From Isoetes taiwanensis (lineage: Eukaryota; Streptophyta; Lycopodiopsida; Isoetales; Isoetaceae), in the NCBI GenBank assembly GCA_021234155.1, contig JAJEKV010000025.1, positions 3,123,339-3,187,338 on the forward strand: DNA of 64,000 nucleotides. The letters run 5' to 3'. This document shows, in pieces, positions 1-45,626 of the stretch. The stretch's first letter is position 1. Every line of letters begins with the position of its first letter. The notes under the pieces are model-generated. The model was not told where the DNA came from. It saw only the letters and a list, made by a program, of their open reading frames with translations, and did not search any database. The position numbers and the translations under genes are program-made.

Positions 1-222
1 TACGTTAATCATCTGCATGAAGAACCTTCTCGGCTATCAAGCACTCGGTTGCAACATCCACGAGCTCACAGCAGAAAGAAGATTGCTAGTACAACGTTTT
101 GTAAATACAAATTTATGTTTTGATCATGTTAACGTGTAAAGCTATAAGTAATTAGGTTGTATTAATGATATCTGCATGTGGAATTACCAAAATTGGAGCA
201 AAACTCAGTGTTTCTGGCATCT

Positions 223-694
223 CTCATAGAGTGCGCCAGGACCAAATCCGTCATTCTCGGATTAGCCTCTCGCGCACTGTGTGAGTGGTCGGACACTGAT
301 CTTTGCCAATACTTGGCCAAATGCAGAAAGTAAGGACACCATTCGACTCATCTCATCTTAATTAGTAGGATTTGACCCCTAGTTTGTAGAAATTGGCCAA
401 CCCTAACTCAAATGGAGCCCCACCTTTCACAGAGTGCACCCAGACCAATTCGGTTTGCAAACCGATTCGACTCTGGCGCACTGTGTGAGTGGTCGACCCC
501 AAAACTAGGCCAAAACTTATCCAAATGAGGCAAGTAAGGGCTCAATCCGACCTATCTCGACGAGATATGCAGGATTCTATCCTTAATTTCCATGTTTGGC
601 ATCATCTTTGACCCAAACAAGACCCCACCCCTCACAGAGTGCGCCCAGACCAAATCGGTTTGCAAACCGATTCGACCCTGGCGCACTGTGTGAG
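223..694. repeat. Array of three ~63-bp nested-palindrome hairpins (left copy)
   Basis: Hairpins lie at 223-285, 427-488 and 631-694, about 200 bp apart. The outer arms are of the type CTCACAGAGTGCGCC and GGCGCACTGTGTGAG, which pair at 14 of 15 positions. The middle of the second and third holds the perfect 14-bp palindrome CGGTTTGCAAACCG. The first has a diverged centre. All lie upstream of the ORF starting at 990. They are repeated at 9333-10509, and a half hairpin lies at 9162-9187. Confidence 0.85.
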
Positions 695-871
695 TGGTCA
701 CACTAAAATTGCCCTAACTTGTCCATACTTTCTCCAAATTAGATGGAATTTGTTGCAATATGATCCTTAGAATGTACTCTTTAGCATGATTAGCTTGTCT
801 TTTGCTTAGCAATACCTTAGAATCCTAGATTTTCCCTTATCAAAAAATTTCCCAAAATTAGGGTTTTTGCC

Positions 872-880
872 TATAAGTAG
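872..880 (+). promoter_or_regulatory. TATA-like box upstream of the ORF at 990
   Basis: TATAAGTAG lies about 118 bp upstream of the ATG at 990. It is conserved in the right-hand copy at 10687-10695. Position and sequence suit a plant core promoter, but no transcription evidence is available. Confidence 0.4.
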
Positions 881-989
881 ACCACAACCCTCATTTGCAT
901 CCTACACCTTTGCTCCTCACTCCAAGCCGATTTTCCAGACCCCTAAGGTGCTTGCCTATTTGTTTGATATCCCCAGCTGCTCATAGACC

Positions 990-1769
990 ATGGCAACCAC
1001 TGCATTCAGGCGATGGTACAGCGCCACAGCACATGTGGCTGAGGCCGACATCAACTTTGTCTTTGTCGTCTTCCAGAAGGAGCTTGATGTGGAAGCCACC
1101 ATCAATGCCACCCCTTTTTACCAAGACATTATGTCTGAGTTCCATGCCAAGATAGGACCATCTCTGGTAGAGCTCCCACCTTGCATAGGATACCTTGCCC
1201 CCAGCATGGCCCTTAAGTCAGCCCTGCAGGACATCCAAAACATAGACAAATACCTAGAAAATAAGGTCAGCTGCTCACCCAATTATATGTCCGTAGCTAT
1301 AAATAGGAGGAGATACTTCTCATACACCGCTGTAGCCATTTTCTTATCCCATAGAGCTCAAACCCAGATAGGAGAACCATATGTCCAACCCCTAGAGCTC
1401 GAGCCTATGGGCATGGCAACAGGTGAAGAAGGGCAGATGCTTCTCAAGTACGAGGAGGCAGAACAGGAGGAAGATAAAGGACGTGGGTCGGACGTAGAGG
1501 ACATCATAGACATCAACCCAGCACAGGAGAGGCAGCAAGCTGAGAAGGAACTTCAAAGCTTTGAAGAGGGGCTGAGAACTACGGCGCTAGGCATCACAAG
1601 CTTAACCCCGGTAATCATCCAAGGAGAGGCGTACCTGAGCCTGCACGACATCAAGAACCTCCCAGAGTGCAGGGACAGGGGCTACAGGATAGACGAGCTC
1701 CTACATCTCTTACGTCAACAACCGGGTCTTGATTCGACCGGGAGACACATGACTTCCCCATCAGTATAA
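990..1769 (+). CDS. Unknown protein, related to the second accessory ORF of the adjacent retroelement
   Basis: This 259-codon ORF is not a family I recognise. It starts MATTAFRRWY, is rich in acidic residues in the middle (EEAEQEEDKGRG, DVEDIID), and ends near a Gln/Leu-rich segment. Its C-terminal block (LTPVIIQGEAYLSLHDI) resembles LLPTVLLNNQEYLILEDI in the ORF at 6175. The N-termini (RRWY against QQWY) and the middle also align by eye, so the two look paralogous. Coding-like sequence continues after the TAA at 1767-1769, with further stops to about 2030, so this may be the front part of a decayed longer protein. The copy at 10805 is broken. I infer a retroelement-associated ORF; function unknown. 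Confidence 0.5.
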   Translation: MATTAFRRWYSATAHVAEADINFVFVVFQKELDVEATINATPFYQDIMSEFHAKIGPSLVELPPCIGYLAPSMALKSALQDIQNIDKYLENKVSCSPNYMSVAINRRRYFSYTAVAIFLSHRAQTQIGEPYVQPLELEPMGMATGEEGQMLLKYEEAEQEEDKGRGSDVEDIIDINPAQERQQAEKELQSFEEGLRTTALGITSLTPVIIQGEAYLSLHDIKNLPECRDRGYRIDELLHLLRQQPGLDSTGRHMTSPSV

Positions 1770-2390
1770 GAAAGGCCCGGATGTACACTGGCCAATCATC
1801 AACAGATATATAAGTCTACCGGCATCAGGCAGATGACGGCTCAGCAAGAGCTACCCATAGAGGAGGAGTTCTTAGCGATCTAGGAGCGGATGGGAATCAG
1901 AGGGAAAACAACGAGTGCGCTCCTACCTAGCACCTCGACAGCAGCACCAGCTGAACAGGATAGGGGCAACATCAACAAAAGGCGCAACAACGCTAGACAA
2001 CTGCAGAACACCCAAGTCCAGCCATGACGAGCTCCCAGACCCCTTGCCCTAGTAAGAAGACAATAATGACTTCATCGATTTAAAAAATAATGGATCATGA
2101 TCAAGGAAAAAGAGGAGACGTAAAATAGGGAAGGCACATCTCCGACTTGAAGGCATATATCAACACCAAGGGCAAGATCAAGGAGGAGGATAGTCGGTAC
2201 GAATAAGAGTTCCAGACCCAGAAACACCTGCAAACCCAAGGTAGGATGATTCCAGTGCCTCAGTCAAGTAGTTCAAGACTCGAGTGGACCCGACCCAAAG
2301 GACGGAGGAGCCGATCTAGCCAACAACCACAGACTACTCAAAGGCAACTCGAAGGAGCGATGGCATGTGCAATGTAGACGACAACATTTC

Positions 2391-3970
2391 GGTGACGTTC
2401 CAAGTATTTATACGGTATACGTATAAATATATTGACACGTCACCCAGTAAAGATACGCCACCATGGGCTATTTTAACCTAGGGGGTTGACCTAAAAGGGA
2501 TTAATTTAGCTATGCTAAATTAATTATTAAAGGTTAATTACAAGCATTGTCAAATTAACTCAATTAAGTTAATTGATTAATTAGAAAGGTGCCACTTGGC
2601 CAAATTCGATTGGCCAGCAGGGAAATGCTAACTTGGGGCATCAAATTGGAGGAGGAGCTGTGAGCGCCCAAACTGTTGCTGAACACCCAAGTTGCTGAAG
2701 TTGTTGCTGAACACCCAAGTTGCTGAAGTGGTTGCTAAACACCCAAGTTGCTGAAAGATGGAGGTGCCCCATGATAACGTTCTAGCAGAAACTCGGGTTA
2801 GTGGGTAGTCAAGCTTGAGATTTGTAGGATAGCGCCTCAGTTAGTCTTCTCTGGTTATCTTTGTTAGGATTAACCCTTCTTTGATAGTTGAGATTATATT
2901 TCAATTATGGATTATGCTTTGTTACGTATGGATGGATGAATCTATGAAAGTATCTCTGTTAGCTTCCGTAAAGCAGGGATTGGGGAGGGAAGAGACCTCT
3001 GAGCCCATGTATTGTAGCATGCTCCTAGATAGAGCCCTGTATTAATCCCATTAATTGCGGCCTGTGCACAAGAGACCACCGAGTCATGGATGCTATGGAA
3101 TTGCTTATCACCAGAGAAGGGACGCAGTGGTGAAGTGGGGGTGGGGTCTTGCACGAACATAAAAGGCTCCTGGGACTCCTACAGTGGGCTAGGCCTGATA
3201 GCCGGTCACGTAGAGGGCCGGGTATGGGTCTGACACTCCCTGGGTGGAGAGGTATGACCCGTATGGGGCATCCTGTACTTTGAAGATAACGTTAGGGGAG
3301 TAGGTCGGGTACGGATACGGGGGTCGCTGATGCGGCACATATTCTCTAGCTCACCCATGGAACCGCTGTGATCCTGGAAGGGGACACTTCCCTGACCTGC
3401 CTCATCGGACCAGGTCTTCATGAAACCTGGAGTAGGCTCGAAGGGTGATACCTTGAGTCTGCGTCTCCGGAAGGCTATAGTGATGCCATAGCATGATTCG
3501 ACTCATCTGCAAAGTGTGCACAGGAGGGGCGGATGGAGTGGACAACCCTAGCCGATGTTCTATGCCAGCCAACGCCATGCCAAGATTCGGTTTGCTGATC
3601 TCTTGAGACCTAGCCGTCAGTCGATCCTCACTGGAGTCTAAGCCGGGGTAGAACCATGGGTTTGGGGTGTTTTCTCTAGTATTAAATGTATCTTCTCTGT
3701 TATTATCAGTTGGATGGATGTGCCACCCTTCGTGGTGGTATTTATGATATGATTATGCTGTATGCTGACCTTGTATTCACGCTTCCGCGACATAGGAGCC
3801 CCATCGAAGGCATGGGCCGAATGACCCCTCTGTGTCCTTCACTCGAGCATCTTTCCATAGATGGCCCGAGTTAGACGGAGGGCCCTGCTCATGGCGAGAT
3901 GGTTGCCATGGGAGGGGGAAGTCCCCGTATGTATACGCCCGAGCGTCGTATATGTTCTGGGAGTGTCACA
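2391..3970 (+). mobile_element. 5' LTR of a gypsy-type retroelement (1580 bp)
   Basis: The start, ggtgacgttcc, corresponds to TGTGACGTTCC in the related LTRs at 12207, 23125 and 62790, with the first T mutated to G. The end is GTCACA. It is followed after one base by a tRNA-Met-type primer-binding site, which marks it as a 5' LTR. ATTTC (2386-2390) precedes it, and the same five bases follow the partner LTR at 13826-13830. It shares with the other family members a conserved block around 3519 (cacaggaggggcggatgga). Confidence 0.88.
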
Positions 3971-3971
3971 G

Positions 3972-3984
3972 TGGTATCAGAGCC
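3972..3984 (+). promoter_or_regulatory. Primer-binding site, initiator tRNA-Met type
   Basis: TGGTATCAGAGCC lies one base after the LTR end at 3970. This is the classic plant retrotransposon primer-binding site, complementary to the 3' end of initiator tRNA-Met. It fixes the orientation of the element as plus. Confidence 0.92.
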
Positions 3985-4641: not shown

Positions 4642-5544
4642 ATGATGCCGCGCTTCAAGCTCACCATGGACCTAAACAAGGCGACTGTCTTCCAGCTGTT
4701 TAGCATCCTAGTCGACCATCTCTCTGATGATAGTGATATGGCCGACACTGTCCTAAACCTACTTGTGACTCATTTCACTGAGGGCCGTAGAATCCCCTAC
4801 CCCATCTTCCATTTCAATGACTGCTTCCTCATGAAGCTAAATGCTGCAGACCAACCTTACACCCTTGTAGAGCAGCCTGATCAAGCTTGGGCCATTGTTA
4901 AGTTCTATCCGCTAGCCGGCCCAGAGGAGGATCCCGCAGAGCTTATCAGAACAGAGGCCCAACGGATTTTGCACCTTGCTAGGGTAGAGGACCTCCAGCA
5001 AATAGCTAGTGGCCTACCAGAAGAGCGGGCTAGCCGTTTCTATTACCTAGGTAAGGGCCATGTGCTCATGTACAGGGACTGCATTACAACCTTCCCCCTT
5101 TCTTTTGGAACGAAGAACTATATAGTTTTATCTTCGAGAATGTTCCCCCTACCTTCACACAAGACCGCATGGACCTCGTGCAAGCTGACATGCGAGCTCA
5201 CCCGGCCCGGTACCACACGGAGATTGCTAGGCGTATACAAGTTGTGCCAGGACAAGGAGGCCCGGGATGCTGAGAGAGAGAGGCTCCGTAAGGCAGAGGG
5301 GGATGCCCAAAACCAGCAGGGCAGGGATCAAAATGTTGATCAAAGTGTAGATCAAACTGTTGTCCAGCAAGGAGATCAACCAGTGAATCAGGAAGGAGAT
5401 CAGACTGTCGTCCCGGATAAGAAGGAGCAGCGTTGGGGTAACCGAAAGAGGAAGAATACAAAACCTATAAGGGGAGGTGTGGATTATAGGACCCGATTGC
5501 AGAAGGATGCCGCCATTGGCAAGAAAACATCGGCTCAGTGACGG
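4642..5544 (+). pseudogene. Retroelement accessory ORF 1, N-terminal unknown domain fused to histone H3
   Basis: The frame opens at the ATG codons 4642 and 4645 and runs to a TGA at 5539-5541. The same frame then continues straight into a histone H3 domain, so this is best read as one fusion gene with one stop inside. The N-terminal 150 or so residues are an unknown, probably helical domain. Between about 5105 and 5250 the conserved-looking peptide (FIFENVPPTFTQDRMDL) is in another frame, implying two compensating frameshifts. A linker rich in DQxVDQ repeats (about 5335-5420) and a Lys/Arg-rich stretch follow. It lies between the primer-binding site and gag, where most gypsy elements have no gene. 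Confidence 0.7.
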
Positions 5545-5925
5545 GAGCAGATCGTTCAGCGGGCGAAACATCCGACGACCGGCGGGAAATCCATCCCATT
5601 GCTGAAGGCAACCGTCAAGCCGCGGAAGCCCCATAGATTTCGACCGGGCACAGTAGCTCTTCATGAGATACGTAAGTATCAGAAGACTACTGAGCCATTG
5701 ATTCGTCGGCTACCCTTTCAGCGGCTTGTCCGGGAAATTGCCCAAGAATTCAAGACCGACCTGAGGTTTCAGGCTTTTGCTATCCTCGCACTCCAGGAGG
5801 CTACCGAGGCTTACCTCATTGAGATTTTGAGTGACGCCAACCTCTGTGCCATCCATGCAAAGAGGGTTACCATAATGCCCAAGGATATCCAGCTCGCAAG
5901 GAGGATCCGAGGGGAGTTTCGGTGA
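5545..5925 (+). pseudogene. Histone H3 domain carried by the retroelement
   Basis: The frame encodes a near-complete histone H3 core: [35 protein letters not shown] and [19 protein letters not shown] are H3 motifs in the correct order, ending RIRGEFR where H3 has RIRGERA. The alpha-N helix, three histone-fold helices and both loops are present at canonical spacing. The tail is strongly altered. TTGGK aligns with the K14 region, but the residues at R8-K9-S10 read H-P-T, so the K9 site appears lost. Loop 1 is not lengthened and the alpha-N sequence is canonical, so this is a replication-type or H3.3-type relative rather than CENH3. It shares the frame of the upstream domain and is separated from it by one TGA. 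Confidence 0.88.
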
Positions 5926-7562: not shown

Positions 7563-7781
7563 ATAACTCTTTTTACAATTGTATATCTTTGTATTGCGTA
7601 TAGATGTAAACTTTGATTGGCATTTTTTTAAGCCATCATATGTACTCTTTTCTTATGCTCTATGATTACTGTATCGTTGAGTACCATTAAATTGTGTCCC
7701 TATGATACTTGTTTGTCTCTTTTAGAGTTTGGAGTATAAAAAATCGTTCGATATTGTATATTCATCCTTGTCGTCTTACAG

Positions 7782-8248
7782 ACGATGAGCTCGAGGAAAT
7801 CGAGGACAGAATAACCAATGAATTACGAAGGGACGATCAGGCACCTCCCGAGCAGGACTTTGGTCAACGGTATGGGGAGTATCCGGATCGGGATGATGAT
7901 TACGAAGCAGGGGAACCCGTGGACGAGGGAGAGCCCTATGATTCAACTAAAGGATTGGAAATAGTCAACATCCTCCGTGAGCGCGCTTTTGAGCATCTAC
8001 AACAGACTCTTCGTTGTACCTGGGATTACTGGGATATGACGAAGCACGAAGATTTTGCCGACGCCAATGACCATTTATGGCAGATCTTCTACGCGTTAAG
8101 AGACCTTTTTAATTTGCTCATCATTAGTCCTACGTTAGACTACCGGTACGTCATCATCCAGGCATGGGCTCGCTACAAGGTAGTCAGGGCAGTACGGGAG
8201 AGCATCCGTTACTCTATCATGTACCCCTTCGCACAACCCTGGGCCTGA
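7782..8248 (+). CDS. Retroelement accessory ORF 3, unknown protein
   Basis: An open frame preceded by a plausible splice acceptor (tcttacag ending at 7781) encodes about 155 residues. An acidic N-terminal half (DDELEEIEDRI, DRDDDYEAGEPVDEG) is followed by a Trp/Tyr-rich helical half (TWDYWDMTKHEDF, IIQAWARYKVV). No family is recognised. An AATAAA-like signal lies at about 8395. It sits third in a same-strand row of accessory ORFs ahead of gag. The frame stays open upstream to 7709 without an ATG start, which favours a spliced origin. Confidence 0.45.
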
Positions 8249-8520: not shown

Positions 8521-9170
8521 ATATAGATGGTGCACGTAACGCCTCATGGCAGACACCCTCGAATGCTAGCAGATTAACACCTGAGCAGGAACTCATGTTG
8601 ATGAAATAGCAGTTAGTAGAGCTACAGGCTTATGTCTTAAATGCCAAACCACCACAGCATATGCAGGAGGACGGACCGGAGTTACCTCCGTTACCACCAA
8701 GTCCATCACCACAGCAGCCACCTGCACCTAAACGAGGCCCTGTACCCGCACAAAGGAGGAACCGTTCCAAACGTCGTCGAAGTTCGTCTACAGATAGTGC
8801 CACATCCTCACAATCAGCCACTTCTATGTCTTCGGAGTCGTCTATATCGTCCGGTGACCATGCAAAGGCCCGAAACAAGGAGTACCGTAAGACGGTTGAT
8901 ACGGCCATTACCAGTATATGGAAAAACAAAAAATTGGCTCAGTTTGATGGGAAATCAAGAGGCGGGCTGAATGCAGAGTCTTGGTTAAACGAGATGAAGG
9001 AGTTTGGGAAATCCTATGGGATGACGGAGAAAGATACAGGAAAAGTTGCCACTACAAACCTTACAGGGGCCGCTCGTATTTGGTGGAAGGGCTATGCTAG
9101 AGCCAAGCATCTGGACAGAAGCAGATGCAAGTTTAAAAAGTTTGCCAAAGCCGTTTGGGATCCGATTTGA
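8521..9170 (+). pseudogene. Gypsy-type gag, truncated at its 3' end
   Basis: The frame contains a Ty3/gypsy capsid core: LNAESWLNEMKEFGKSYGM, then GKVATTNLTGAARIWWKGYA, matching the retrotransposon-gag pattern of W...M...F...K...L.G.A..WW. An upstream proline/arginine/serine-rich region (PPSPSPQQPPAPKR) and a further in-frame segment (LTPEQELMLMK) are separated by a TAG near 8608. Coding sequence stops abruptly at KAVWDPI, where at 9162 the DNA becomes the right half of a hairpin repeat. The rest of gag and all of pol are missing, so the element is non-autonomous or recombined here. Confidence 0.82.
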
Positions 9171-9804
9171 TCTTGGCGCACTGTGTGAGTGGTGGACCTA
9201 TGTTGACCTAGTTAAATGCATAATTTAGCTAAACTAATGGTGTAGTTCAGCTTATGATTCTAGCTAGTTTTGCATGTTACAACACTAAGAAACCCTTTGT
9301 AAATTGAGAATTGACCCAAAAAGAGGTGACCCCTCATAGAGTGCGCCCAGACCAATTCGGTTTGCAAACCGATTCGACCCTGGCGCACTGTGTGAGTGGT
9401 CAAAACTTTGAACCTTCATTATACAGCTCCAAATCGCCTGAAATTTGTTGCGTTAGGACCATTAAAGAGTCTAGAATCCAATTATAACCCTAAATTAGGC
9501 TAAAAATATTATAATCCACCTCAAAATGACCAAAAATTGCTCAAACCCTAAATTATGTCTTCCAAACTAGGGTTTGTTTAGAAATAGAGGCAGTAGCTTT
9601 TAGGATACAAGGCTAGAGCCACAGAAGAGCAAAGGGCATGACTTTTTGAAGACATTGAAGACCCAGACGACGTACTGACAACATAAGGGAGGACTGTGAA
9701 AGGCAGACCCAAGAGAGGAAGCACTATGGCAAACACCTCTACCAACGAAGCAAGTAGTACATGGCACAACTGGTTTATCAACAATCTTCATCGAATGGAA
9801 GACA
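9162..9804. other. Junction and flank sequence upstream of the right repeat copy
   Basis: From 9162 the gag sequence passes into the second half of the same hairpin type found at 223-694, sharing CCGAT at the join. Another full hairpin lies at 9333-9396. This extends the flank repeat leftward beyond what is visible at the window start. No gene is seen. Confidence 0.7.
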
Positions 9805-10509
9805 TACGTTAATCATCTGCATGAAGAACCTTCTCAGCTATCAAACACTCGGTTGCAACATCCACGAGCTCACAGCAGAAAGAAGATTGCTAGTTATCGT
9901 AAATACACAACTTTTTGTAAATACAAATTTATGTTTTGATCATGTTAACGTGTAAAGCTATAAGTAATTAGGTTGTATTAATGATATCTGCATGTGGAAT
10001 TACCAAAATTGGAGCAAAACTCAGTGTTTCTGGCACCCCTCACAGAGTGCGCTAGGACCAAATCTGTCATTCTCGGATTAGCCTCTCGCGCACTGTGTGA
10101 GTGGTCGACCACTGATCTTTGTCAATACTTGGCCAAATGCAGAAAGTAAGGGCACCATTCGACTCAGCTCATCTTAATTAGTAGGATTTGACCCCTAGTT
10201 TGTAGAAATTGGCCAACCCTAACTCAAATGGAGCCCCACCCCTCACAGAGTGCGCCCAGACCAATTCGGTTTGCAAACCGATTCGACTCTGGCGCACTGT
10301 GTGAGTGGTCGACCCCAAAACTAGGCCAAAACTTATCCAAATGAGGCAAGTAAGGGTCAATCCGACCTATCTCGACGAGATATGCAGGATTCTATCCTTA
10401 GTTTCCATGTTTGGCATCATCTTTGACCCAAACAAGACCCCACCCCTCACAGAGTGCGCCTAGACCAAATCGGTTTGCAAACCGATTCGACCCTGGCGCA
10501 CTGTGTGAG
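9333..10509. repeat. Array of four nested-palindrome hairpins (right copy)
   Basis: Hairpins at 9333-9396, 10039-10101, 10242-10305 and 10446-10509 have the same outer arms and, except for the 10039 copy, the same CGGTTTGCAAACCG centre as those at 223-694. Paired changes are few. The hairpins tolerate substitutions mostly outside the arms, which suggests that the palindrome itself is what is conserved or copied. Confidence 0.85.
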
Positions 10510-10804
10510 TGGTCACACTAAAATTGCCCTAACTTGTCCATACTTTCTCCAAATTAGATGGAATTTGTTGCAATAGGATCCTTAGAATGTACTCTTTAGC
10601 ATGATTAGCTTGTCTTTTGCTTAGCAATAACTTAGAATCCTAGATTTTCCCTTATCAAAAAATTTCCCAAAATTAGGGTTTTTGCCTATAAGTAGACCAC
10701 AACCCTCATTTGCATCCTACACCTTTGCTCCTCACTCCAAGCCGATTTTCCAGACCCCTAAGGTGCTTGCCTATTTGTTTGATATCCCCAGCTGCTCATA
10801 GACC

Positions 10805-11566
10805 ATGGCAACCACTGCATTCAGGCGATGGTACAACGCCACAGCCCATGTGGCTGAGGCCGACATCAACTCTGTCTTTGCCGTCTTCCAGAAGGAGCTT
10901 GATGTGGAAGCCACCATCAATGCCACCCCTTTTTACCAAGACATTATGTCTGAGTTCCATGCCAAGATAGGACCATCTCTGGTAGAGCTCCCACCTTGCA
11001 TAGGATACCTTGCCCCCAGCATGGCCCTTAAGTCAACCCTGCAGGACATCCAAAACATAGACAAATACCTAGAAAATAAGGTCAGCCGTTGACCCAATTA
11101 TATGTCCATAGCTATAAATAGGAGGAGATACTTCTCATACACCACTGTAGCCATTTTCTTATCCCATAGAGCCCAAACCCAGATAGGAGAACCATCTGTC
11201 CAACCCCTAGAGCTCGAGCCTATGGCCATGGCAGCAGGTGAAAAAGGGCAGATGCTTCTCAAGTACGAGGAGGCAGAACAGGAGGAAGATAAAGGACGTG
11301 GGTCGGACGTAGAGGACATCATAGACATTGACCCAGCACAGGAGAGGCAACAAGCAAAGAAGGAACTTCAAAGCTTTGAAGAGGGGCTGAGAACCACGGG
11401 GCTAGGCATCACAAGCTTAACCCCAGTAATCATCCAAGGAGAGGCGTACTTGAGCCTGCACGACATCAAGAACCTCCCAGAGTGCAGGGACAGGGGCTAC
11501 AGGATAGATGAGCTCCTACATCTCTTATGTCAACAACCGGATCTTGATTCGACCGGAGACACATGA
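10805..11566 (+). pseudogene. Broken copy of the ORF at 990
   Basis: The 95-residue opening frame is nearly identical to that at 990 but ends at a TGA (11090-11092), where the left copy has a serine codon. The frame reopens at once and continues to 11566. Loss of one G near 11550 then shifts the end relative to the left copy. Two independent lesions in one copy and later stops in both copies argue that neither is under strong selection. Confidence 0.75.
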
Positions 11567-12206
11567 CTTCCCCATCAGTATAAGAAAGGCCCGGATGTAC
11601 ACTGGCCAATCATCAACAGATATATAAGTCTACACCGGCATCAGGCAAATGACGGCTCAGCAAGAGCTACCCACAGAGGAGGAGTTCTTAGTGATCTAGG
11701 AGCGGATGGGAATCAGAGGGAAAACAACGAGCGCGCTCCTACCCAGCACCTCGACAGCAGCACCAGCCAAACAGGATAGGGGCAACATCAACAAAAGGCA
11801 CAACAACGCTAGACAACTGCAGAACACCCAAGTCCAGCTATGACGAGCTCCCAGGCCCCTTGCCCTAGTAAGAAGACAATAATGACTTCATCGATTTAAA
11901 AAATAGGGGATCATGATCAAGGAAAAAGAGGAGACGTAAAATAGGGAAGGCACATCTCCGACTTGAAGGCATATATCAACACCAAGGGCAAGATCAAGGA
12001 GGAGGATAGTCGGTACGAATAAGAGTTCCAGACCCAGAAATGCCTGCAAACCCAAGGTAGGATGATTCCAGTGCCTCAGTCAAGTAGTTCAAGACTCGAG
12101 TGGACCCGACCCAAAGGACAGAGGAGCCGACCTAGCCAACAACCACAGACTACTCAAAGGCAACTCGAACAAGCGATGGCATGTGCAATGGAGACGACAA
12201 CATTTC

Positions 12207-13825
12207 TGTGACGTTCCAAGTATTTATACGGTGTACGTATAAATATATTGACACGTCATCCAGTAAAGATACGCCACCATGGGGTATTTTAACCTAGGGG
12301 GTTGACCTAAAAGGGATTAATTTAGCTATGCTAAATTAATTATTAAAGGTTAATTACAAGCATTGTCAAATTAACTCAATTAAGTTAATTGATTAATTAG
12401 GAAGGTGCCACTTGGCCAAATTCGATTGGCCAGCAGGGAAATGCTAACTTGGGGCATCAAATTGGGTCCCTACCCCATTTGACCCCAAAATCGAGCCAGG
12501 AGGAGGAGCTGTGAGCGCCCAAGCTGTTGCTGAACACCCAAGTTGCTGAAGTTGTTGCTGAACACCCAAGTTGCTGAAGTGGTTGCTGAACACCCAAGTT
12601 GCTGAAAGATGGAGGTGCCCCATGATAACGGTTCTAACAGAAACTCGGGTTAGTGGTTAGTCAAGCTTGAGATTTGTAGGATAGCGCCTCAGTTAGTCTT
12701 CTTGGTTATCTTTGTTAGGATTAACCCTTCTTTGATAGTTGAGATTATATTTCAATTATGGATTATGCTTTGTTACGTATGGATGGATGAATCTATGAAA
12801 GTATCTCTGTTAGCTTCCATAAAGCAGGGATTAGGGGGGGGGGGTAGAGACCTCTGAGCCCATGTATTGTAGTATGCTCCTAGATAGAGCCCTGTATTAA
12901 TCCCATTAATTGCGGCCTGTGCACAAGAGACCACCGAGTCGTGGATGCTATGGAATTGCTTAGCACCAGAGAAGGGACGCAGTGGTGAAGTGGGGGTGGA
13001 GTCTTGCACGAACATAAAAGGCTCCTAGGACTCCTACAGTGGGGTAGGCCTGATAGCCGGTCACGTAGAGGGCCGGGTATGGGTCTGACACTCCCTGGGT
13101 GCAGAGGTGTGACCCGTATGGGGCATCCTATACTTTGAAGATAAAGTTAGGGGAGTAGGTCGGGTACGGATACGGGGGTCGCTGATGCGGCACGTATTCT
13201 CTAGCTCACCCATGGAACCGCTGTGATCCTGGAAGGGGACACTTCCATGACCTGCCTCATCGGACCAGGTCTTCATGAAACCTGGAGTAGGCTCGAAGGG
13301 TGATACATTGAGTCTGCGTCTCCGGAAGGCTATAGTGATGCCATAGCATGATTCGACTCATCTGCAAAGTGTGCACAGGAGGAGCGGATGGAGTGGACAA
13401 CCCTAGCCGATGTTCTATGCCAGCCAACGCCATGCCAAGATTCGGTCTGCTGATCTCTTGAGACCTAGCCGTCAGTCGATCCTCACTGGAGTCTGAGCCG
13501 GGGTAGAACCATGGGTTTGGGGTGTTTTCTCTAGTATTAAATGTATCTTCTCTGTTATTATCAGTTGGATGGATGTGCCACCCTTCGTGGTGGTATTTAT
13601 GATATGATCATGCTGTATGCTGACCTTGTATTCATGCTTCCGCGACATAGGAGCCCCATCGAAGGCGTGGGCCGAATGACCCCTCTGTGTCCTTCACTCG
13701 AGCATCTTTCCATAGATGGCCCGAGTTAGACGGAGGGCCCTGCTCATGGCGAGATGGTTGCCATGGGAGGGGGAAGTCCCCGTATGTATACGCCTGAGCG
13801 TCGTATATGTTCTGGGAGCGTCACA
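12207..13825 (+). mobile_element. Right-hand LTR, structurally a solo LTR
   Basis: It starts TGTGACGTTCC and ends GTCACA (1619 bp). Both sides carry ATTTC: 12202-12206 and 13826-13830. Upstream is not a polypurine tract but the same flank sequence that precedes the 5' LTR at 2391. This is what a solo LTR at the original insertion site would look like. A TATA box is not obvious. Confidence 0.85.
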
Positions 13826-19748: not shown

Positions 19749-21653
19749 TTAGACTGGGGGTTTTTTCCCTACTGCGACGTCTATAGGCACGTCCTCATCA
19801 ACCGAATCATCTGACTCACCCTCACTCTCGGGTTCTGTAACATTTTTGGTCCTTGACCTTGTCAACCTAGTGATTCGAGTCACAACCTTGTCAACCTGCT
19901 TCTTCACATCTTCAACATCCTTGTCTGCCCCTGCATCAACAGTGTTAGAGGAGGTCTTTGTAGAGGTTGCTGCAGAATTTGGAACTATAGTGTAATTGTC
20001 AACATCGTCAGAACTACTGGAATCTGCTTTGGACCGTGTTGGTGTCTTTAGCACTGTGCTTTCAGGTGCTGCATTGTGCTGCTGACTGCTTGCCTTTTGC
20101 TGTGCACTGTTTACAGGCGCTTCTAATGTTCCCAATTCAGAAAACAAGCGTGTACCTTTTCTGGCTGTTCTTGCTTGTGGAGTTCGAGTCCTTGTAGACT
20201 TGTGTCCGGGGGTCCTTTTACTAAGAGGTGTTCTAACATGCTTCCTTTTCCTGTTGCTGTCTGGAGTTGTAGCTACCACCTCATCTATGTCAATTGTCTC
20301 AACTATGTGTTTGTATGCTGCCCCAGCATATAAGGGTTCCTGCTTGACTGTCTTCCTCAATTCCTCCACTAAGCCTGTTGGAACTGTTTCTGAGCATTCG
20401 AGGCAGTGTGCCTTCTCCATAAGCAAACTCAGGCAGCTGACATGATATACGTGGCCACATTTCAGCTTCAGACTGAGGGTGTAATCATCCTGGAATGCGA
20501 GCCCGCATGTGGAGCATCTCTCCTCATCTCCAATTGGCAACTTGAATGGCACAGGATAGATGCTCACAAGCTGGCCGGCTCTCTTTGTAAGTTCCCTAAG
20601 CCTGTTGACATTCTGTAAATGCTGCTGGGCTTTTGCAAGCTGCACTTCATTGTTTGCAACCTCAGCAGCTACAGTGGCCACCTGTTGAACTATCCCGTCA
20701 TCTACTGGGCCACCCCCCATTTCAACAAGGGCTTTGAGCATGTACTCTGCCATGTCTTTTTCTCTCTCTGTAGCTCTGTAGCTCTGTAGCATCAGGACCT
20801 GTCAGGGCTTGAAGACGTGAGATGTTGTCTTTTATTGTCTGCAATTTCTCTTGTGAAGCCGAGAAGAAAGTTTCCTTAGCCTGGAACTGGACAACTAGCT
20901 CCTTCTTGGAGACTAAATCAGCCTGCTGCGTGTTTAGGGTTTCCTGCAAAGCTTTGCACATGACTTCCAGGCGTGATATGTTCTCCCCATAAGCTGTGTA
21001 AGCTATTGGGCACATTGCAACGCTCCTAATGGATGGCCTCCCTTCTAATTTAATACCAATGCCTCCTGAAACTTGCCTTTCTGCTATGCTTTCAGGTGCT
21101 GTGGTTTACTGAGATTTGCTGGTCTCTGCTCTGCTTGCTGGAGCACTGCTGGTGGGTTCACTTTTAACCTTGCTGCTGTAGGCTCTACTCTTTGATGCAA
21201 CTGCTGCCCAATTAACCTTGAACTTTTCTGGATCCTGCTTTGCTCTCTGGCAGTTATTGAATGCAAATAGGTATGATACTGTCTTTCTAACTTCTCTGTT
21301 CTTCAATCCGTCCGGGTATATTTTGCTCAGAAGTTCAATTAGAGCTTCTTCGTGCTCTGGCCTTACCTTATCAATAGAAGTTTTGCCAGGAATGACCCCG
21401 TTGGTATCCCAAACTTCATTGTACTCTGCTGCAGATATGACGGCTGTTCGAAATTGAGAGGGATGAACGCCCTCGTTTGGCAGACCCGCATACGCATGAA
21501 AGTCTTCTTTGGTTCGGCAATCAGCCAGGTCTGGTCTTAAGGGAACGTTTCTTCTGGCCTGGAAGAATGCAAGAAAATCGAATTAACAGGGGACCCTAAA
21601 CCCATAGAAATTTTGTTTAGTTGCTTTTTGCTTACCCGACGCATGGCCTCCAT
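19749..21653 (-). pseudogene. RING-H2 zinc-finger protein with coiled coil, two lesions
   Basis: Exon 1 (21653-21636, MEAMRR) is joined across a 77-bp intron to a long second exon. An unknown N-terminal domain (about 21558-21110) is followed by a coiled-coil region (SRLEVMCKALQETLNTQQ) and a RING finger near 20513-20390: CSTC, then KCGHVYHVSC and CLEC, which gives C3H2C3 spacing. The tail is basic and Ser/Thr-rich, ending in an acidic stretch. A TAA at 21106-21108 interrupts the frame, and a shift occurs at a triple 8-bp repeat (20766-20789), where one more unit would restore phase. RING-H2 proteins are usually ubiquitin ligases; that activity here is inference. Transcription would start near the right TIR. 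Confidence 0.75.
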
Positions 21654-23124: not shown

Positions 23125-24727
23125 TGTGACGTTCCAGCATAATATACGCTCCAAAAATGTATATTATACTGCCACGTCACATGTACATGTCACGGATGAC
23201 ATGTACTTGCGAGCCGAAGAGGGTTGCACCTAGGGGCCAAGAGTTGCACCTAGGGGGGCAACCTCGAATGTTGTGCATGTTAAATAAACATACACAATTA
23301 ATAACCCCATGGACCCCATTGCCAAATGGCTAAACCCCATTTGGCCAATGTCTAACCTAACCCTAAGGGTTTCTATAAAAGGGGTTCCCCTTAAAACCTA
23401 GACCCTTTCTTCTCTTTGCATTTTAGGGTTTTCATAGAGCTCCTTTCCCTTCTCGCATTTAGGGTTCTCTTGAGCCATTTCGGCTAAGCCAAGACCCCAT
23501 TTCGCATTGTTCGGCTCTGCAAAGCCGTATTTGCACAATAGATCATCGAGTAGCAGCAGTCTTCAGCAGGATCAGAGGCATGGATGCATTCCGAGACTTT
23601 GGAGCAGATCAAGGACCAGGTATCGAGTCATTCCGTTGTGCAAAGCCGCCTTTTGGCTAGGCAATAAGCAGGTTTAGTATGTTAGATCAGCCATAGAAGC
23701 CTTATAGATCCCGAGATCATAAACCCTAACTAAGGAACCTAACTCTGGACGTTTAGGTAGATGGATTAGATGATGTTCTTCATTTCAGTTCTGTGATGAT
23801 GTTGGTATTTCATTCTGTGACCTCCATGTATTGGGAAGGGGGGTAGAGGCCTAAAGCTTGTGTAGCAGATGATCATAGGTAGCCTACTAGCTCCCAATTA
23901 TTGCGGCCTGTGCACAGGAGCCCACTGGGTTGTGGGTTGAGGGGCTAGACCAGCAGAACAATGGGACACTTATCCCAACACAGAATGATCCCTCTGGTGT
24001 GTAAAGCCTACCGGGGATTCCCTGTGGACTAGGCTTAATGGCTTGCCACTGTGTGTGGGCAAGGCATGAGCTCGACACCCGTGGAGTGATGCGTCACTCT
24101 CCATTGGGTTCAAGTCGAATAAGGGCAGTGGCCCTCTAGTCACCTGTGTTGGGCATGGAAGTCCCTGGAGGAGAGGTGACTCTCTTCCTGCCTCATCAGT
24201 GCTAGGGAGATGCAACCCAGTAGTAGCCCTTTTGGCTATGCACCTGGCAGGCTACGGTCCAGTCCCAACACTTTTCAATCCAATCTGCAAAGTGTGCACA
24301 GGAGGGGTGGATGGAGTGGACTACCCTTAGCCATGTTCTTATGCCAGCCAAATCCATGTGCCATGAATTCTGTCTGCAATGTGGAGGCCCAAGCCGGCAG
24401 TCATACACCCTCGAGTCTGAGCCCTGGGTAGGATTTCCTTTTACTGTTAGTGTTCATGTTGATGTTGTTATATTGACGAGGATATGATGTTTCACCCTTC
24501 GAGGTGATTGTATTGTTATAGTATGTCATGTGCTCATGTTTATTCACGCTTCCGCAGATAGGTCGACCCGAAGGGAGACGGGTGAATGACACATCCACTC
24601 TTCCCTTGCTGGCTCATTCCACTGGAAGTGGTGTCAGGTGGATGGCCCCTGCCAGTTTGGCTGTCAGGGGGAATGCTCCGCCTTCTGATACGGTGTGTGC
24701 ACCGTAGAGGAAGTAGGGGACGTCACA
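23125..24727 (+). mobile_element. 3' LTR of the chromovirus (1603 bp)
   Basis: It starts TGTGACGTTCC and ends GACGTCACA. It follows pol sequence and a polypurine tract, so it is a 3' LTR. A TATA-like TATAAAAGG lies near 23376. It shares conserved blocks with the LTRs at 2391, 12207 and 62790, notably around 23828 (gtattgggaaggggggtag) and 24293 (gtgcacaggaggggtggat). GCTTG follows and would be the target duplication, but the 5' end needed to confirm it is absent. Confidence 0.85.
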
Positions 24728-37289: not shown

Positions 37290-39742
37290 TGTAACGGTCC
37301 TGGCCACCTAATGGGTCAATATACCTATTTATGTATGTATATACATATTCATGGCATATATGCAGCATGAGATTAGGGTTTTGTCTCTTTGGAGAAAGGA
37401 TTGTTGCAGAGCATGAAGGTAGGGAGCAATTCTGGGCAGTTTTGGAGCCCGAAGTTTGAAGCATCATATCTCGGCAACTCGAGATCCTTTTCAGGTGATT
37501 TTTCTTTTGTTGGAAAGGTCTTTAAGTAAGCTTTCCGGAATGGGTCTGATCAAGCCAAAACTCATCCGTATGCAAACGTTATGACAGAAATAGTGATGCT
37601 GAGTCAGAATTGACTGCACTATGCCTATTCTTCTGCAGTTTGCTTCTTGGAGCTAGAAGACGATCTTTGGAGGCACAATCAATTACAAGGGGTCCAGAGG
37701 TCTATGTGGAAAGAAATTATCAGGTGGGGTTTTGCTTTTGATCAATTGAGGTGTGCTATGAGCTGCCATGATTAGTCTGCACATGATTTTTGCATGCAAA
37801 TATGATAGATTATGAATTTGTTGGAGACTCATAAGGCTAGAGAAGAAAATCAATGATTGGAAACATCCCTGTAAGGCTGATTTTAAGTCAAGAATGGCTG
37901 AATATTACATGAAGAGCACTGATTCAACATGGAAACTTTAAAAAAAGGCAGAATTAGATTGGATCTGGTCGGCACCGAGCTCTCCAACGCCATTTTGTGT
38001 TCATGTTATGTTTTTGTCATTTTGGTTTTGTGCTTTATTTTGTTGGTCTTGTATTTGCTGCCTTTCTCAATTTATTTGCATGTCCTAGTATGAAGCTAAG
38101 TCCTCATAGATGGAATTGGGCTGCATTCGAGCTTAGCAGCAGAGGAGATCGGAGCATGAAGAGCTGAGCAGAATAATCATAATAGTAAGAATATGCATTG
38201 TTTGATAATTGTCTAACTATGGTAAAATTCTAAGGTTTGGGATAAAGTATCTTTCTTAGCTCATGGAGATGGGGCTAATGCTGAAAAGTAGTCTAGCACA
38301 GATGTAGAGCGTCAACGACCCCTCGGCATCAAGGATTTCAGCATCAAGTTCGCATGTGGATCTTGAAATAGGAATAAGCGGTCATCTGACATCAAGGATT
38401 ATTGAGATTGAGACGGGTCCACATTGGTACAAGGAGAGCCATGTGAAGCTTGGGGGTTTCTGAATGTGACTATAGCATGAAGTACATCTAGTCTGAGTGC
38501 GTAACTGTAAGTTTTCAAGTTGTTGCATTGTATTTTATCAAGAGCATCATAGCTAATGGATTCAAAGTATAAACGTTATGGAACGTTGTATTCCTCATGG
38601 GAAGATGGTTTCGAGGTAAGTTTTGCATTATAGAAGATGTTAGTATCTTTCCTTGATCAGTAACGTATATAGGTATTGAAGCTACATCAATGACAGTCAG
38701 GCTCGTAACTTCCTCCACATGTTTGTATTGTGATCATGATCTTCACCAATGAGTTAGCTACTTCGGCATGGTTAGGTTGTATGGGCAACCTCGACAAGGG
38801 CTAAGAGTATGATCTAGGCACATGTTTAATAAATATTGTAATGAACTTCACATGTCATGGTCTTTGCATTGCTCTACTGTTGTCTTGGTATTTGATTATG
38901 TCTATTGGAACCTCCGGGGTCGGACTTCTAGGTTCGGTGGCCTAGGTTGCTCTGGCATGCTCATGTTCATCTGTGATTCTCTGTGGTTCTTGTGCTCTAT
39001 GACACCGGGCGTAGTTTCCCTGATCAGGAGGCTACGTCAACTCTTGTGACTCCATGGTAAGAGGTCCTCCAGTGCCAGACGTGGGCTGAGAGGGTATGCG
39101 CATACGAGGTTCACCCCACCAACTCCGTCAACGGGGCTCGGAATGTGAGCTGGCCGGGCATTTCTCTGCTAACAGGGCCTGCATGTAGGCTGGCTGAGCT
39201 TCCCATTGTCCCGGAGCTATGTGTCATGATGGTTTGATATTTTTGACTATGTCTTGCTTCTGATGTTCATGTTGATATTTCTTTGGATTATGTTGTCATT
39301 GTCTTAGCACTGTACTCACGTAGGATTTTCCATCTGTGTTTATGCTTATCCGAGATTTCCAGAGTATTTCCATACATGCAGTGGCAGCCAGGGATCCCCA
39401 CTTAGTCACGAGGACTAACCCCAGTGAGTGCATGTGCAGTGAATAAGCAAGGGATGGCGGCGGTGCAGCTGAGGATCGTGGTGGAGCGAAGCTCTTGGGA
39501 TGAATTGTTCACAATTATATGTTATATTTGTTGAGAACATGGATTCTTTGGCTGTTAATATTTTCTGATTATATTGAGATCTTAAGTAGTTGCTCATTGA
39601 GTTTTGAGCGTGTAATTTAACTGTGCAAGAGGAAGATTCAATTCTTCACCATATCCAATTGTTTGTCACACCAACCTAGAACTAGCACAGTATTGACAAG
39701 ATCCCGAGTTGCCTAGAGGGTCAACTCGGCAGGCTCGTCACA
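37290..39742 (+). repeat. 5' LTR (2453 bp)
   Basis: Nearly identical to 40137-42595, apart from a divergent patch at about 39060-39200 and a few indels around 38490. It is preceded by TGCTA and followed by the primer-binding site. Confidence 0.92.
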
Positions 39743-39744
39743 GT

Positions 39745-39756
39745 TGGTATCAGAGC
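39745..39756 (+). promoter_or_regulatory. Primer-binding site, initiator tRNA-Met type
   Basis: TGGTATCAGAGC lies two bases after the LTR end. It is the same type as that at 3972, though the LTRs are unrelated. Confidence 0.88.
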
Positions 39757-40136
39757 AATGTTGGATCTTTGGGAGTTGGCTTGTTTGGTTGTGGCATTGT
39801 GATGCTAATGATCTTTCTTTCAGAGACATCAAGAGATGGTATCCTCAGAGGGATAAGCAATATCTAGGGGTGGTTAGCATGAAGATGCCAAGGCAAGCAA
39901 ATTTTGACGATGTTGAAGGTAAGGTCTTTCTTGTGGCATGTTCAGTAAGATGATAGCAATTGTAAGATGGTGCTGGTAAGATTGGAATATGATTGTGGTA
40001 GAGTAAGTTGCTACACGAGCTGAAGTTTTGAGTTGAGTTGAGCTATGCTTGATCTGAGATTTGAATCAAGAAATTCTTCAGTAGAATCTATCACGCGACC
40101 CATGAGGACATGGGTTAATTTTTAGAAGGGGAGACT
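39757..40136 (+). other. Short interior of the LTR element
   Basis: There is no significant ORF. Its 3' part (around 40060-40115: ATTTGAATCA, then GACCCATGAGGACATGGG) resembles 47360-47415 in the first intron of the CHERP-like gene. A purine-rich run, agaaggggagact, ends just before the right LTR. Confidence 0.7.
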
Positions 40137-42595
40137 CAGAACGGTCCCGCCACCTAATGGGTCAATATACCTATTTATGTATGTATATACATATTCATGG
40201 CATATATGCAGCATGAGATTAGGGTTTTGTCTCTTTGGAGAAAGGATTGTTGCAGAGCATGAAGGTAGGGAGCAATTCTGGGCAGTTTTGGAGCCCGAAG
40301 TTTGAAGCATCATATCTCGGCAACTCGAGATCCTTTTCAGGTGATTTTTCTTTTGTTGGAAAGGTCTTTAAGTAAGCTTTCCGGAATGGGTCTGATCAAG
40401 CCAAAACTCATCCGTATGCAAACGTTATGACAGAAATAGTGATGCTGAGTCAGAATTGACTGCACTATGCCTATTCTTTCTCAGTTTGCTTCTTGGAGCT
40501 AGAAGACGATCTTTGGAGGCTAATCAATTACAAGGGGTCCAGAGGTCTATGTGGAAAGAAATTATCAGGTGGGGTTTTGCTTTTGATCAATTGAGGTGTG
40601 CTATGAGCTGCCATGATTAGTGCGCACATGATTTTTGCATGCAAATATGATAGATTATGAATTTGTTGGAGACTCATAAGGCTAGAGAAGAAAATCAATG
40701 ATTGGAAACATCCCTGTAAGGCTGATTTTAAGTCAAGAATGGCTGAATATTACATGAAGAGCACTGATTCAACATGGAAACTTTAAAAAAAGGCAGAATT
40801 AGATTGGATCTGGTCGGCACCGAGCTCTCCAACGCCATTTTGTGTTCATGTTATGTTTTTGTCATTTTGGTTTTGTGCTTTATTTTGTTGGTCTTGTATT
40901 TGCTGCCTTTCTCAATTTATTTGCATGTCCTAGTATGAAGCTAAGTCCTCATAGATGGAATTGGGCTGCATTCGAGCTTAGCAGCAGAGGAGATCGGAGC
41001 ATGAAGAGCTGAGCAGAATAATCATAATAGTAAGAATATGCATTGTTTGATAATTGTCTAACTATGGTAAAATTCTAAGGTTTGGGATAAAGTATCTTTC
41101 TTAGCTCATGGAGATGGGGCTAATGCTGAAAAGTAGTCTAGCACAGATGTAGAGCGTCAACGACCCCCGGCATCAAGGATTCAGCATCAAGTTCGCATGT
41201 GGATCTTGAAATAGGAATAAGCGGTCATCCGACATCAAGGATTATTGAGATTGAGACGGGTCCACATTGGTACAAGGAGAGCCATGTGAAGCTTGGGGGT
41301 TTCGAATGTGACTATAGCATGAAGTACATCTAGTCCGAAAAGCGTGAATCGTAAGTTTTCAAGTTGTTGCATTGTATTTTATCAAGAGCATCATAGCTAA
41401 TGGATTCAAAGTATAAACGTTATGGAACGTTGTATTCCTCATGGGAAGATGGTTTCGAGGTAAGTTTTGCATTATAGAAGATGTTAGTATCTTTCCTTGA
41501 TCAAGAACGTATATAGGTATTGAAGCTACATCAATGACGGTCGGGGCTCGTGAACTTCCTCCACATGTTTGTATTGTGATCATGATCTTCACCAATGAGT
41601 TAGCTACTTCGCATGCATGGTGAGGTTGTATGGGCAACCTCGACAAGGGCTAAGAGTATGATCTAGGCACATGTTTAATAAATATTGTAATGAACCTCAC
41701 ATGTCATGGTCTTTGCATTGCTCTGCTGTTGTCTCGGTATTTGATTATGTCTATTGGAACCTCCGGGGTCGGACTTCTAGGTTCGGTGGCCTAGGTTGCT
41801 CTGGCATGCTCATGTTCATCTGTGATTCTCTGTGGTTCTTGTGCTCTATGACACCGGGCGTAGTTTCCCTGATCAGGAGGCTACGTCAACTCTTGTGACT
41901 CCATGGTAAGAGGTCCTCCAAAGGCCGGACGTAATGAGAGGGTATGCGATATCGCAGGTTCACCCCACCAACTCCGGCCAATCGGGGCTCGGAATGTGAG
42001 TCGGGCGGGCATTTTCTCTAAAGGGTGGCCTCGCATGTAGGTCGGGCCGAGCTTCCCATTGTCCCGGAGCTATGTGTCATGATGGTTTGATATTTTTGAC
42101 TATGTCTTGCTTCTGATGTTCATGTTGATATTTCTTTGGATTATGTTGTCATTGTCTTAGCACTGTACTCACGTAGGATTTTCCATCTGTGTTTATGCTT
42201 ATCCGAGATTTCCAGAGTATTTCCATACATGCAGTGGCAGCCAGGGATCCCCACTTAGTCACGAGGACTAACCCCAGTGAGTGCATGTGCAGTGAATAAG
42301 CAAGGGATGGCGGCGGTGCAGCTGAGGATCGTGGTGGAGCGAAGCTCTTGGGATGAATTGTTCACAATTATATGTTATATTTGTTGAGAACATGGATTCT
42401 TTGGCTGTTAATATTTTCTGATTATATTGAGATCTTAAGTAGTTGCTCATTGAGTTTTGAGCGTGTAATTTAACTGTGCAAGAGGAAGATTCAATTCTTC
42501 ACCATATCCAATTGTTTGTCACACCAACCTAGAACTAGCACAGTATTGACAAGATCCCGAGTTGCCTAGAGGGTCAACTCGGCAGGCTCGTCACA
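40137..42595 (+). repeat. 3' LTR (2459 bp)
   Basis: Partner of 37290-39742, followed by the TGCTA target duplication at 42596-42600. Confidence 0.92.
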
Positions 42596-45180: not shown

Positions 45181-45626
45181 GAGAGATAGTCTAAGGAAAG
45201 CCTGGGAAAGTAGACTGAAGAAAGAATCGACAAGAGGAGAACGCAGATGAGCTGATGAAGAAGAAAAGGGAAGAAACGACATCTATAAGTGCGAAAACCC
45301 TAACTACCAAGAGGATCTAACTAACTATATGTGGCAATGGTTTCGAGAATTACATTTCTTCTTCACCTCTCCAAAATAACTTATCCAAAAACCCAAAAAA
45401 GCAACATGACCTTCCTCAAATATGGCAATATATACGGTTTTCTATACAATACAATACCAGATGGTTTTCTATACAATACAATACCAGAATCATAGTTCCC
45501 ACCATTGCGAGAATACCCTCCCGCAATACCAAACGAATTGGGTAAACTTAATCATATACAAACCCTACGTGACAACTAAGGTAATAACGAAGAACCCTAA
45601 AATCCTGTTCCAGCTGGTTTGGGAAA
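45181..45626. promoter_or_regulatory. Shared upstream region of two divergent genes
   Basis: About 446 bp lie between the minus-strand block and the ATG at 45627. It contains a tandem AT-rich duplication (TATACAATACAATACCAGA, about 45440-45490). A bidirectional promoter is inferred from layout only. Confidence 0.35.

Follow-up and report, generated by a model that had tools for sequence, protein, structure and literature searches.

A histone H3 fused to an element-specific domain in a multicopy Ty3/Gypsy-type retroelement family of Isoetes taiwanensis

We analysed a stretch of 64,000 nucleotides from Isoetes taiwanensis (assembly GCA_021234155.1, contig JAJEKV010000025.1, positions 3,123,339 to 3,187,338 of the forward strand), hereafter the window. 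It holds an LTR element in which a reading frame ending in a histone H3 domain lies between the primer-binding site (PBS) at 3972 and a gag-like frame at 8610-9170, the location given by the initial annotation. The features of this copy are:

1 to 3970, + strand: 5' LTR, ending in ..TCACA, found by blastn against 9805-13825; its first about 110 bases lie outside the window
3972 to 3984, + strand: primer-binding site TGGTATCAGAGCC, read directly, with the exact pattern at 3972
4642 to 5541, + strand: ORF1, an element-specific domain (about the first 205 aa) and a DQ-rich, then basic linker; at least 175 matches in its own genome
5542 to 5925, + strand: H3 part in the same frame as ORF1, 28 tail-like aa and then the core; PF00125, E 2e-44
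5626 to 5916, + strand: H3 core, residues 37-133 in H3 numbering; 82/97 identical to Adiantum H3 P0229
6178 to 7380, + strand: ORF2, with a tblastn match in 9/10 followed copies
7706 to 8248, + strand: ORF3, conserved in 7/10 followed copies
8610 to 9170, + strand: gag remnant (amino-terminal part), 70-90% identical to the matching frame in 6/10 followed copies
9684 to 9694, + strand: polypurine-tract-like stretch adjoining the 3' LTR, read directly
9695 to 13825, + strand: 3' LTR, 4131 bases, TGTGA..TCACA

We found that 4642-5925 reads in one register as ORF1 domain, linker and H3, a TGA at 5539-5541 being the sole internal in-frame stop. The segment 5542-5925 matched PF00125 in Pfam (E 2e-44) and H3 chains among solved structures (E about 1.5e-50); together with the 82 of 97 core residues shared with the fern protein, this identifies a histone H3 fold with H3-specific core sequence. 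Short tandem repeats (DQ) were located in the linker at 5326-5413. The initial proposal of a domain, a DQ-repeat and basic linker and a nearly complete H3 core in a single frame was thereby borne out. Because no in-frame ATG occurs from 5140 to 5875, the H3 core of the window copy can be read only as a fusion, a start of its own being impossible. By codon-position GC, the beginning of ORF1, the linker and the H3 all look coding in the main frame, and 5091-5240 looks coding in an alternative one. This main/alternative/main periodicity makes two compensating shifts credible, with the frame-shifted stretch inside ORF1 at about 5090-5250, so that the single TGA and the two shifts described at the outset were both recovered.

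With paired LTRs that have TG..CA ends, a PBS (which we take to be of the initiator-methionine tRNA type) and a polypurine tract, the window copy has the outline of a Ty3/Gypsy LTR element. Its two LTRs differ at 100 of 3967 compared bases (K2P 0.0257). At this divergence about 0.57-0.58 stops and 1.2-1.3 frame-shifting indels are expected under neutrality since insertion in an ORF of the same length, and one stop with two shifts therefore fits decay after the insertion of a copy that was then open. No pol-like frame was found between 9170 and the polypurine-tract-like stretch at 9684, and the order gag, protease, reverse transcriptase (RT), RNase H, integrase is not present in this copy. Pfam returned nothing above a cut-off for ORF1, ORF2, ORF3 or the LTR frame, and no gag match for the remnant at 8610-9170 itself; the matching frame in one relative (L021) hit Retrotrans_gag (8e-5) and Ty3_capsid (6e-6), both just below the Pfam cut-offs. 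The window copy is a decayed, pol-less, non-autonomous family member, its decay having been recognised from the TGA and the shifts. A frame of 260 aa inside the LTRs is open at 987-1769 (5' LTR) and broken at 10805-11557 (3' LTR), with no Pfam match.

The window's own genome (1,658,258,908 bases in 1110 contigs) was then searched. The ORF1 query gave at least 175 matches from 131 scored candidates (3143 first-look candidates), and the H3 query at least 150 matches among 150 scored (8714 first-look candidates), all 87-100% identical to the window H3. When a fern H3 was the query, the matches, again at least 150, consisted of 15 of host type (92-98%) and 135 weaker ones (62-87%), which were assigned to the family type by identity. 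All three counts are lower bounds and the lists partly overlap. We examined 28 copies of the window's clade (clade 1), namely the window copy, seven other ORF1 matches, the next 12 in rank order and eight picked among stop-free rows. In 28/28 the H3 follows straight after ORF1 at the same junction. The H3 register is ungapped in 24 of the 28, three of which have a stop in the H3 part. In 14 of the 28, ORF1 and the end of the H3 share one uninterrupted frame (9/20 rank-ordered, 5/8 picked); two of these open-frame copies (L015 and L020) lack the first residues of ORF1. Ten copies of a second, divergent clade (clade 2) were fetched from among the 135 weaker fern-H3 matches, chosen because the listing showed long open frames, and the ORF1-linker-H3 layout was present in 10/10.

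The family is thus multicopy, with more than 100 copies containing H3, and the fusion is real and part of a large family. That it is older than the window copy and common to a family had been suspected from the start, with many copies at one H3 junction as the expected sign; the 28/28 and 10/10 copies agree with this. Two outcomes that would have spoken against it, an H3 found only once and a host mRNA inserted by chance in one copy, are both excluded by the genome searches, the latter by the shared junction in 28/28 copies and the at least 150 H3 matches.

To place the element, ten clade-1 copies were followed in both directions. An exact PBS lay 678-709 bases before ORF1 in nine of them, ORF2 was recognised in nine, ORF3 in seven and gag in six, and LTR-like repeats (94.9-97.8%) were present in five within the stretches fetched; for one copy (L028) ORF2, ORF3 and gag were all not found in the stretches followed. 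ORF2 is about 69-89% identical over its main pieces in 9/10 of these copies. ORF2 and ORF3 may act together with ORF1-H3. The downstream frames of L004 and L021, the two of the ten that were scanned, encode protease, RT (6e-39 and 3e-35), RNase H and integrase, with a Chromo domain (PF00385, 5e-8) after the integrase. Two clade-2 copies have the PBS. Downstream of one clade-2 copy (L055; piece L061) we detected a capsid (2e-14), a protease and an integrase core and found no RT; downstream of another (L060; piece L063) RT (1e-38), RNase H and integrase were detected. L004 and L021 thus have the order gag and protease-RT-RNase H-integrase, which clade 2 shows in separate pieces. The clade-2 pieces scanned, in which the integrase frame stops early, revealed no chromodomain.

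These domains classify the family by sequence as Ty3/Gypsy, clade 1 having a pol of chromovirus type; the gag, protease, RT, RNase H and integrase of the relatives bear out the original call of a Gypsy-type element. An H3 borne by a hAT transposon was also considered and ruled out by the LTR and PBS in the window, the RT in relatives and the lack of a transposase match in the frames scanned. The chromodomain beside the integrase makes a chromatin-directed lifestyle plausible. A link between the chromodomain and the H3 is unsupported, since the first cage aromatic is lacking in the integrase chromodomain, as judged by eye, and no chromodomain was seen in the clade-2 pieces.

Selection on the H3 was estimated by the Nei-Gojobori method. 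For the H3 core of 24 clade-1 copies dN was 0.041 and dS 0.83, a ratio of 0.05 (266/276 pairs; 10 saturated or zero pairs dropped), and the ratio for the tail was 0.165 (19/276 pairs dropped). Since six of the 24 had been picked as stop-free, the estimate was redone on the 18 rank-ordered copies and gave 0.052 for the core (153/153 pairs) and 0.176 for the tail (152/153 pairs). In the three copies whose H3 contains a stop, the core ratio was 0.074. Among the 91 pairs of the 14 open frames, dN/dS was 0.041 for the H3 core (88 pairs used), 0.158 for the ORF1 domain (68), 0.22 for the linker (88) and 0.16 for the tail (81). Uncorrected pN/pS of the core was 0.092 within clade 1 and 0.048 within clade 2, where all copies had been chosen as open; between the clades it was 0.143, with synonymous sites near saturation. 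As a control we compared the frame in the window copy's two LTRs, which showed 10 differences in synonymous versus 18 in nonsynonymous codons, near the expectation without selection. Clades 1 and 2 are 83.1% identical in the core, 37.2% in ORF1, 27.9% in the linker and 29.3% in the tail.

Purifying selection has thus strongly constrained the H3 core, and this in at least two deep clades; the ratio of below 1 that the first reading had looked for in the H3 part came out at 0.04-0.05. We are close to certain that this is a multicopy Ty3/Gypsy family with an H3 fusion that is kept by selection.

The LTR-derived rate predicts 2.65 changes in the H3 core since insertion, and 15 of 97 residues differ from the fern H3 and likewise from the plant's own H3 L050 (16 from L049), a number not attained in any of 300 simulations. 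It follows that the H3 either had joined the element well before the window insertion or was already divergent at capture. We weighed these data against the view that a host H3 is carried without benefit, or that the window copy took up an H3 retrocopy by chance. The window copy is broken (TGA, shifts), and LTR elements carry pieces of host genes, often in one or few copies, as described in PMC7264820. Against this stand the single junction in all 28 and all 10 copies examined, the core dN/dS of 0.04-0.05 and the excess of core changes over those expected since insertion. For the family, passive carriage is refuted, and as an account of the locus its probability is close to nil.

We also attempted to detect selection from the window copy alone. 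Eleven of its 15 core changes are present in other H3s as well (null 4.2, P 0.0002), but after stepwise removal of hits sharing element residues this fell to 9/15 (P 0.005), 6/15 (P 0.13) and 0/15 (P 1.0, by construction), and a set of 10 distinct cores contained 1/15 (P 0.32). A run of 26 unchanged residues in the window H3 was not unusual (963/10000). These single-copy tests are biased by the choice of hits and suggestive at best, and they are superseded by dN/dS. Six of the 15 core changes cluster in seven residues of helix 2 (H3 101-107; window 5818-5838), which random placement reached in 20 of 10000 trials.

To pinpoint which residues are kept, 30 host core positions were tallied over 34 family copies (24 clade-1 and 10 clade-2). 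The nucleosome-building residues R40, K56, L65, K79, R83, F84, L90, Y99, C110, K115, M120 and L126 are retained in 34/34, and positions 106, 108 and 122 are likewise host-like in 34/34; R69 is kept in 30/34 and R72 in 29/34. Position 64 is R in 22/24 clade-1 copies. All 34 copies carry the substitutions S87 to F and T107 to A, and residues 86, 102 and 105 are unlike the host in 34/34, mostly with different letters in each clade. The F at position 87, within the chaperone-recognition site 87-90, was found in only 1/232 cores among the protein hits. A single-sequence model of the H3 (pLDDT 59; PDB H3 hits only at TM 0.25) gave no structural support beyond the sequence.

The altered chaperone site bears on one alternative, in which the fusion sequesters H4 or chaperones of the host and thereby upsets silencing coupled to replication, with no useful entry into chromatin. 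F87 in all 34 copies could alter chaperone release, as such a poison or dosage effect would have it. Against it, R40, R83 and K115, residues that contact DNA in the H3 structure, are kept in 34/34 copies as well. We regard sequestration as improbable.

A tree of 50 H3 cores was built from 31 family sequences (21 clade 1, 10 clade 2; three clade-1 sequences with stops were omitted), two host H3s and 17 others. A branch with support 97/95 separated all 31 stop-free family H3s from the host H3s and the 17 others, in a tree in which many inner branches are weak and the bootstrap was not fully settled. A single capture of an H3 gene is therefore enough to explain the tested family H3s. That the capture is old follows from the near-saturation of synonymous sites between family and host H3 (pS 0.86-0.91).

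Three further H3s, P0165, P0168 and P0169, which we take to be archamoeba proteins, share R64, A86, I89 and T96 with the window H3. An archamoeba origin was considered, as these proteins share 85/97 core residues compared with 82 for the fern, yet the family branch is separate from the two in the tree. The plant's own H3 has E77, as do many family copies. Given the separate branch and E77 in the host, convergence at permissive sites is likelier than an archamoeba origin. CENH3 has a divergent core with a longer loop 1; a CENH3 identity was ruled out by the ungapped alignment to canonical H3 over residues 37-133, which shows no longer loop.

The tail behaved differently from the core. The window tail did not align to the H3 tail above shuffles (421/5000 and 594/3000 shuffles reached the score), and a canonical H3 tail with K4, K9 and K27 contexts is lacking. 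The motif ARKS, as found around H3 K9 and K27, occurs in the linker of L055, L056 and L059, that is in 3/24 open ORFs, all of clade 2, where it may be a relic or a mimic. The loss of the K9 context, noticed at the outset, agrees with the rarity of ARKS among the open family ORFs. A likeness of the GGK to K14 had been noted as well. TGGK is present in 21/24 clade-1 tails, clade 2 reads GAK or AGK at the site, and across both clades the lysine itself is kept in 24/24 open ORFs, along with several further residues of the linker; GGK may be homologous to K14, though in the window copy the likeness does not exceed chance.

The 75 residues before the core contain 19-22 K+R against 4-5 D+E in the three ORFs counted. 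For ORF1, a search of 5.8 billion proteins gave 806 candidates of which none reached E 0.01, solved structures yielded no match, and its single-sequence model (pLDDT 44) gave no structural support. Viral contigs searched with ORF1, H3 and ORF2 gave no match.

The basic linker and tail of the three ORFs counted, and the position of the gene upstream of gag, would suit a packaging protein whose H3 domain and linker condense element RNA or DNA, nucleocapsid-like, in particles or in the pre-integration complex. The most conserved part, however, is an H3 fold with its nucleosome-building residues, which RNA condensation does not need, and the relatives have a gag as well. This we consider the weakest of the functional readings and quite improbable.

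From the conservation of the H3 fusion we suggest that the element acts through it on host chromatin. Since one protein combines a conserved H3 core with a basic linker and an additional domain under constraint, entry into nucleosomes with host H4 is the best explanation that we can offer. The fusion protein would be made from element RNA, its H3 fold would pair with host H4, and host chaperones would place it into nucleosomes, where the ORF1 domain and basic linker would stand in place of the normal H3 tail. The ARKS contexts of K9 and K27 being absent from most copies, nucleosomes containing their fusion could not carry the usual silencing marks, and they might display the ORF1 domain as a docking surface. 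The element would then gain by weaker silencing of its own or target chromatin and/or by marked integration sites. Taken as a whole, deposition in host nucleosomes that weakens silencing and/or marks integration sites has in our estimate about an even chance of being right.

Its parts differ in strength. Deposition as such is somewhat probable, as judged from the nucleosome-building residues that are largely kept across the 34 copies; the use of chaperones is uncertain owing to F87 in 34/34. Anti-silencing as the main benefit is possible but falls a little short of an even chance, and the GGK lysine in 24/24 open ORFs together with ARKS in 3/24 speaks against a tail free of modifiable sites. 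On its boldest form, in which the element encodes its own nucleosome subunit, an H3 variant with an element-specific 300-residue module as its tail that resists K9/K27-based silencing and serves as a landmark, our view is likewise tentative and leans slightly to the doubtful side. If true, such an H3 would count as a selfish histone variant that persists through selection acting on the element, not on its host.

The same deposition could serve target choice and not escape from silencing. In that case the fusion would enter nucleosomes at chosen sites as an address label, and ORF1 would recruit the integration complex. Relatives of the element have an integrase chromodomain, ORF1 is constrained (dN/dS 0.158, 68/91 pairs) as expected of a docking domain, and the H3 core is the most conserved part, all in keeping with such a tether; it leaves the absence of the ARKS context from 21/24 open ORFs without explanation. 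We judge it unlikely, though less so than sequestration.

Captured histones are known from other mobile DNA. Fungal hAT DNA transposons carry H3 in Pyrenophora tritici-repentis (H3L; PMC3538342) and Pseudocercospora fijiensis (PMC6710886) and, as in our family, a mobile element spreads an H3 coding sequence to tens or hundreds of copies (PMC3538342, PMC6710886). H3L differs in having a frame of its own, with most copies identical (PMC3538342), whereas the H3 described here is fused to an element domain; of the P. fijiensis copies only the original has escaped inactivation (PMC6710886). The fungal carriers are DNA transposons, in contrast to an LTR retroelement in a plant with two deep clades under strong purifying selection.

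Single viral H3 or H4 genes are found in Manila clam xenomavirus, Dishui Lake phycodnavirus, mimivirus-related MAGs and a bracovirus (CvBV-H4) (PMC9145170). Over the fold, the six single viral H3s share 73-87% identity with host H3; three of them have extended tails, and several have a changed chaperone site (SAIL, TAIL); the bracovirus H4 enters host chromatin and the six H3s are thought likely to do so (PMC9145170). Our family resembles them in one captured core histone with an altered chaperone site (here 82/97 and FAIL). It differs in that they belong to DNA viruses, while here a retroelement has an extension of about 300 aa with a conserved domain, and in its many genomic copies, so that selection is measurable.

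Phalaenopsis Ty3/Gypsy elements with an AlkB m6A demethylase, fixed in a lineage (PMC9289625), are likewise plant Gypsy elements with a host-derived protein acting on host regulation, but that protein is an RNA demethylase and not a building block of chromatin. The screen of 121 angiosperm genomes in the same paper, with RT as marker, names no histone in its main-text description (PMC9289625). Plant chromoviruses with integrase chromodomains are known from lycophytes (Selaginella) and share the Ty3/Gypsy pol and chromodomain with our family; unlike it, no element-encoded histone is mentioned for them in the excerpted text (PMC3350952). The word 'histone' is absent from the main text of a review and a survey on extra ORFs and captured genes in plant LTR elements (PMC7264820, PMC3726574), and from that of the Isoetes taiwanensis genome paper (PMC8566536).

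Among the open-licence papers listed in our searches we found no retroelement-encoded histone. Mobile DNA is known to have captured histones, but to judge from these searches no retroelement family has been described in which strong selection maintains an H3 fusion. Mobile DNA is silenced mainly through marks on the H3 tail, and an element-encoded H3 that lacks the usual tail, with a core conserved far beyond the rest of the gene across two old clades, lets nature itself test whether a parasite can turn chromatin into a tool. The many natural copies, with the host's own H3 for comparison, provide a test system.

Additional features were observed elsewhere in the window. A second LTR pair lies at 37293-42595 (about 2.46 kb, 97.6% identical, with about 0.4 kb between the LTRs) and has its own TGGTATCAGAG site at 39745. 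Fragments at 24283-24431 and 63739-63977 are 77-81% identical to the LTR of the H3 element, so related LTR families are nearby. A 350-aa frame at 19752-20801 on the minus strand has a basic stretch and weak RING-finger matches below the Pfam cut-off. Finally, host-like genes were seen at 45588-49912 (Surp/CID and SWAP1_C pieces of a splicing-type gene) and at 59280-60332 (PPR repeats).
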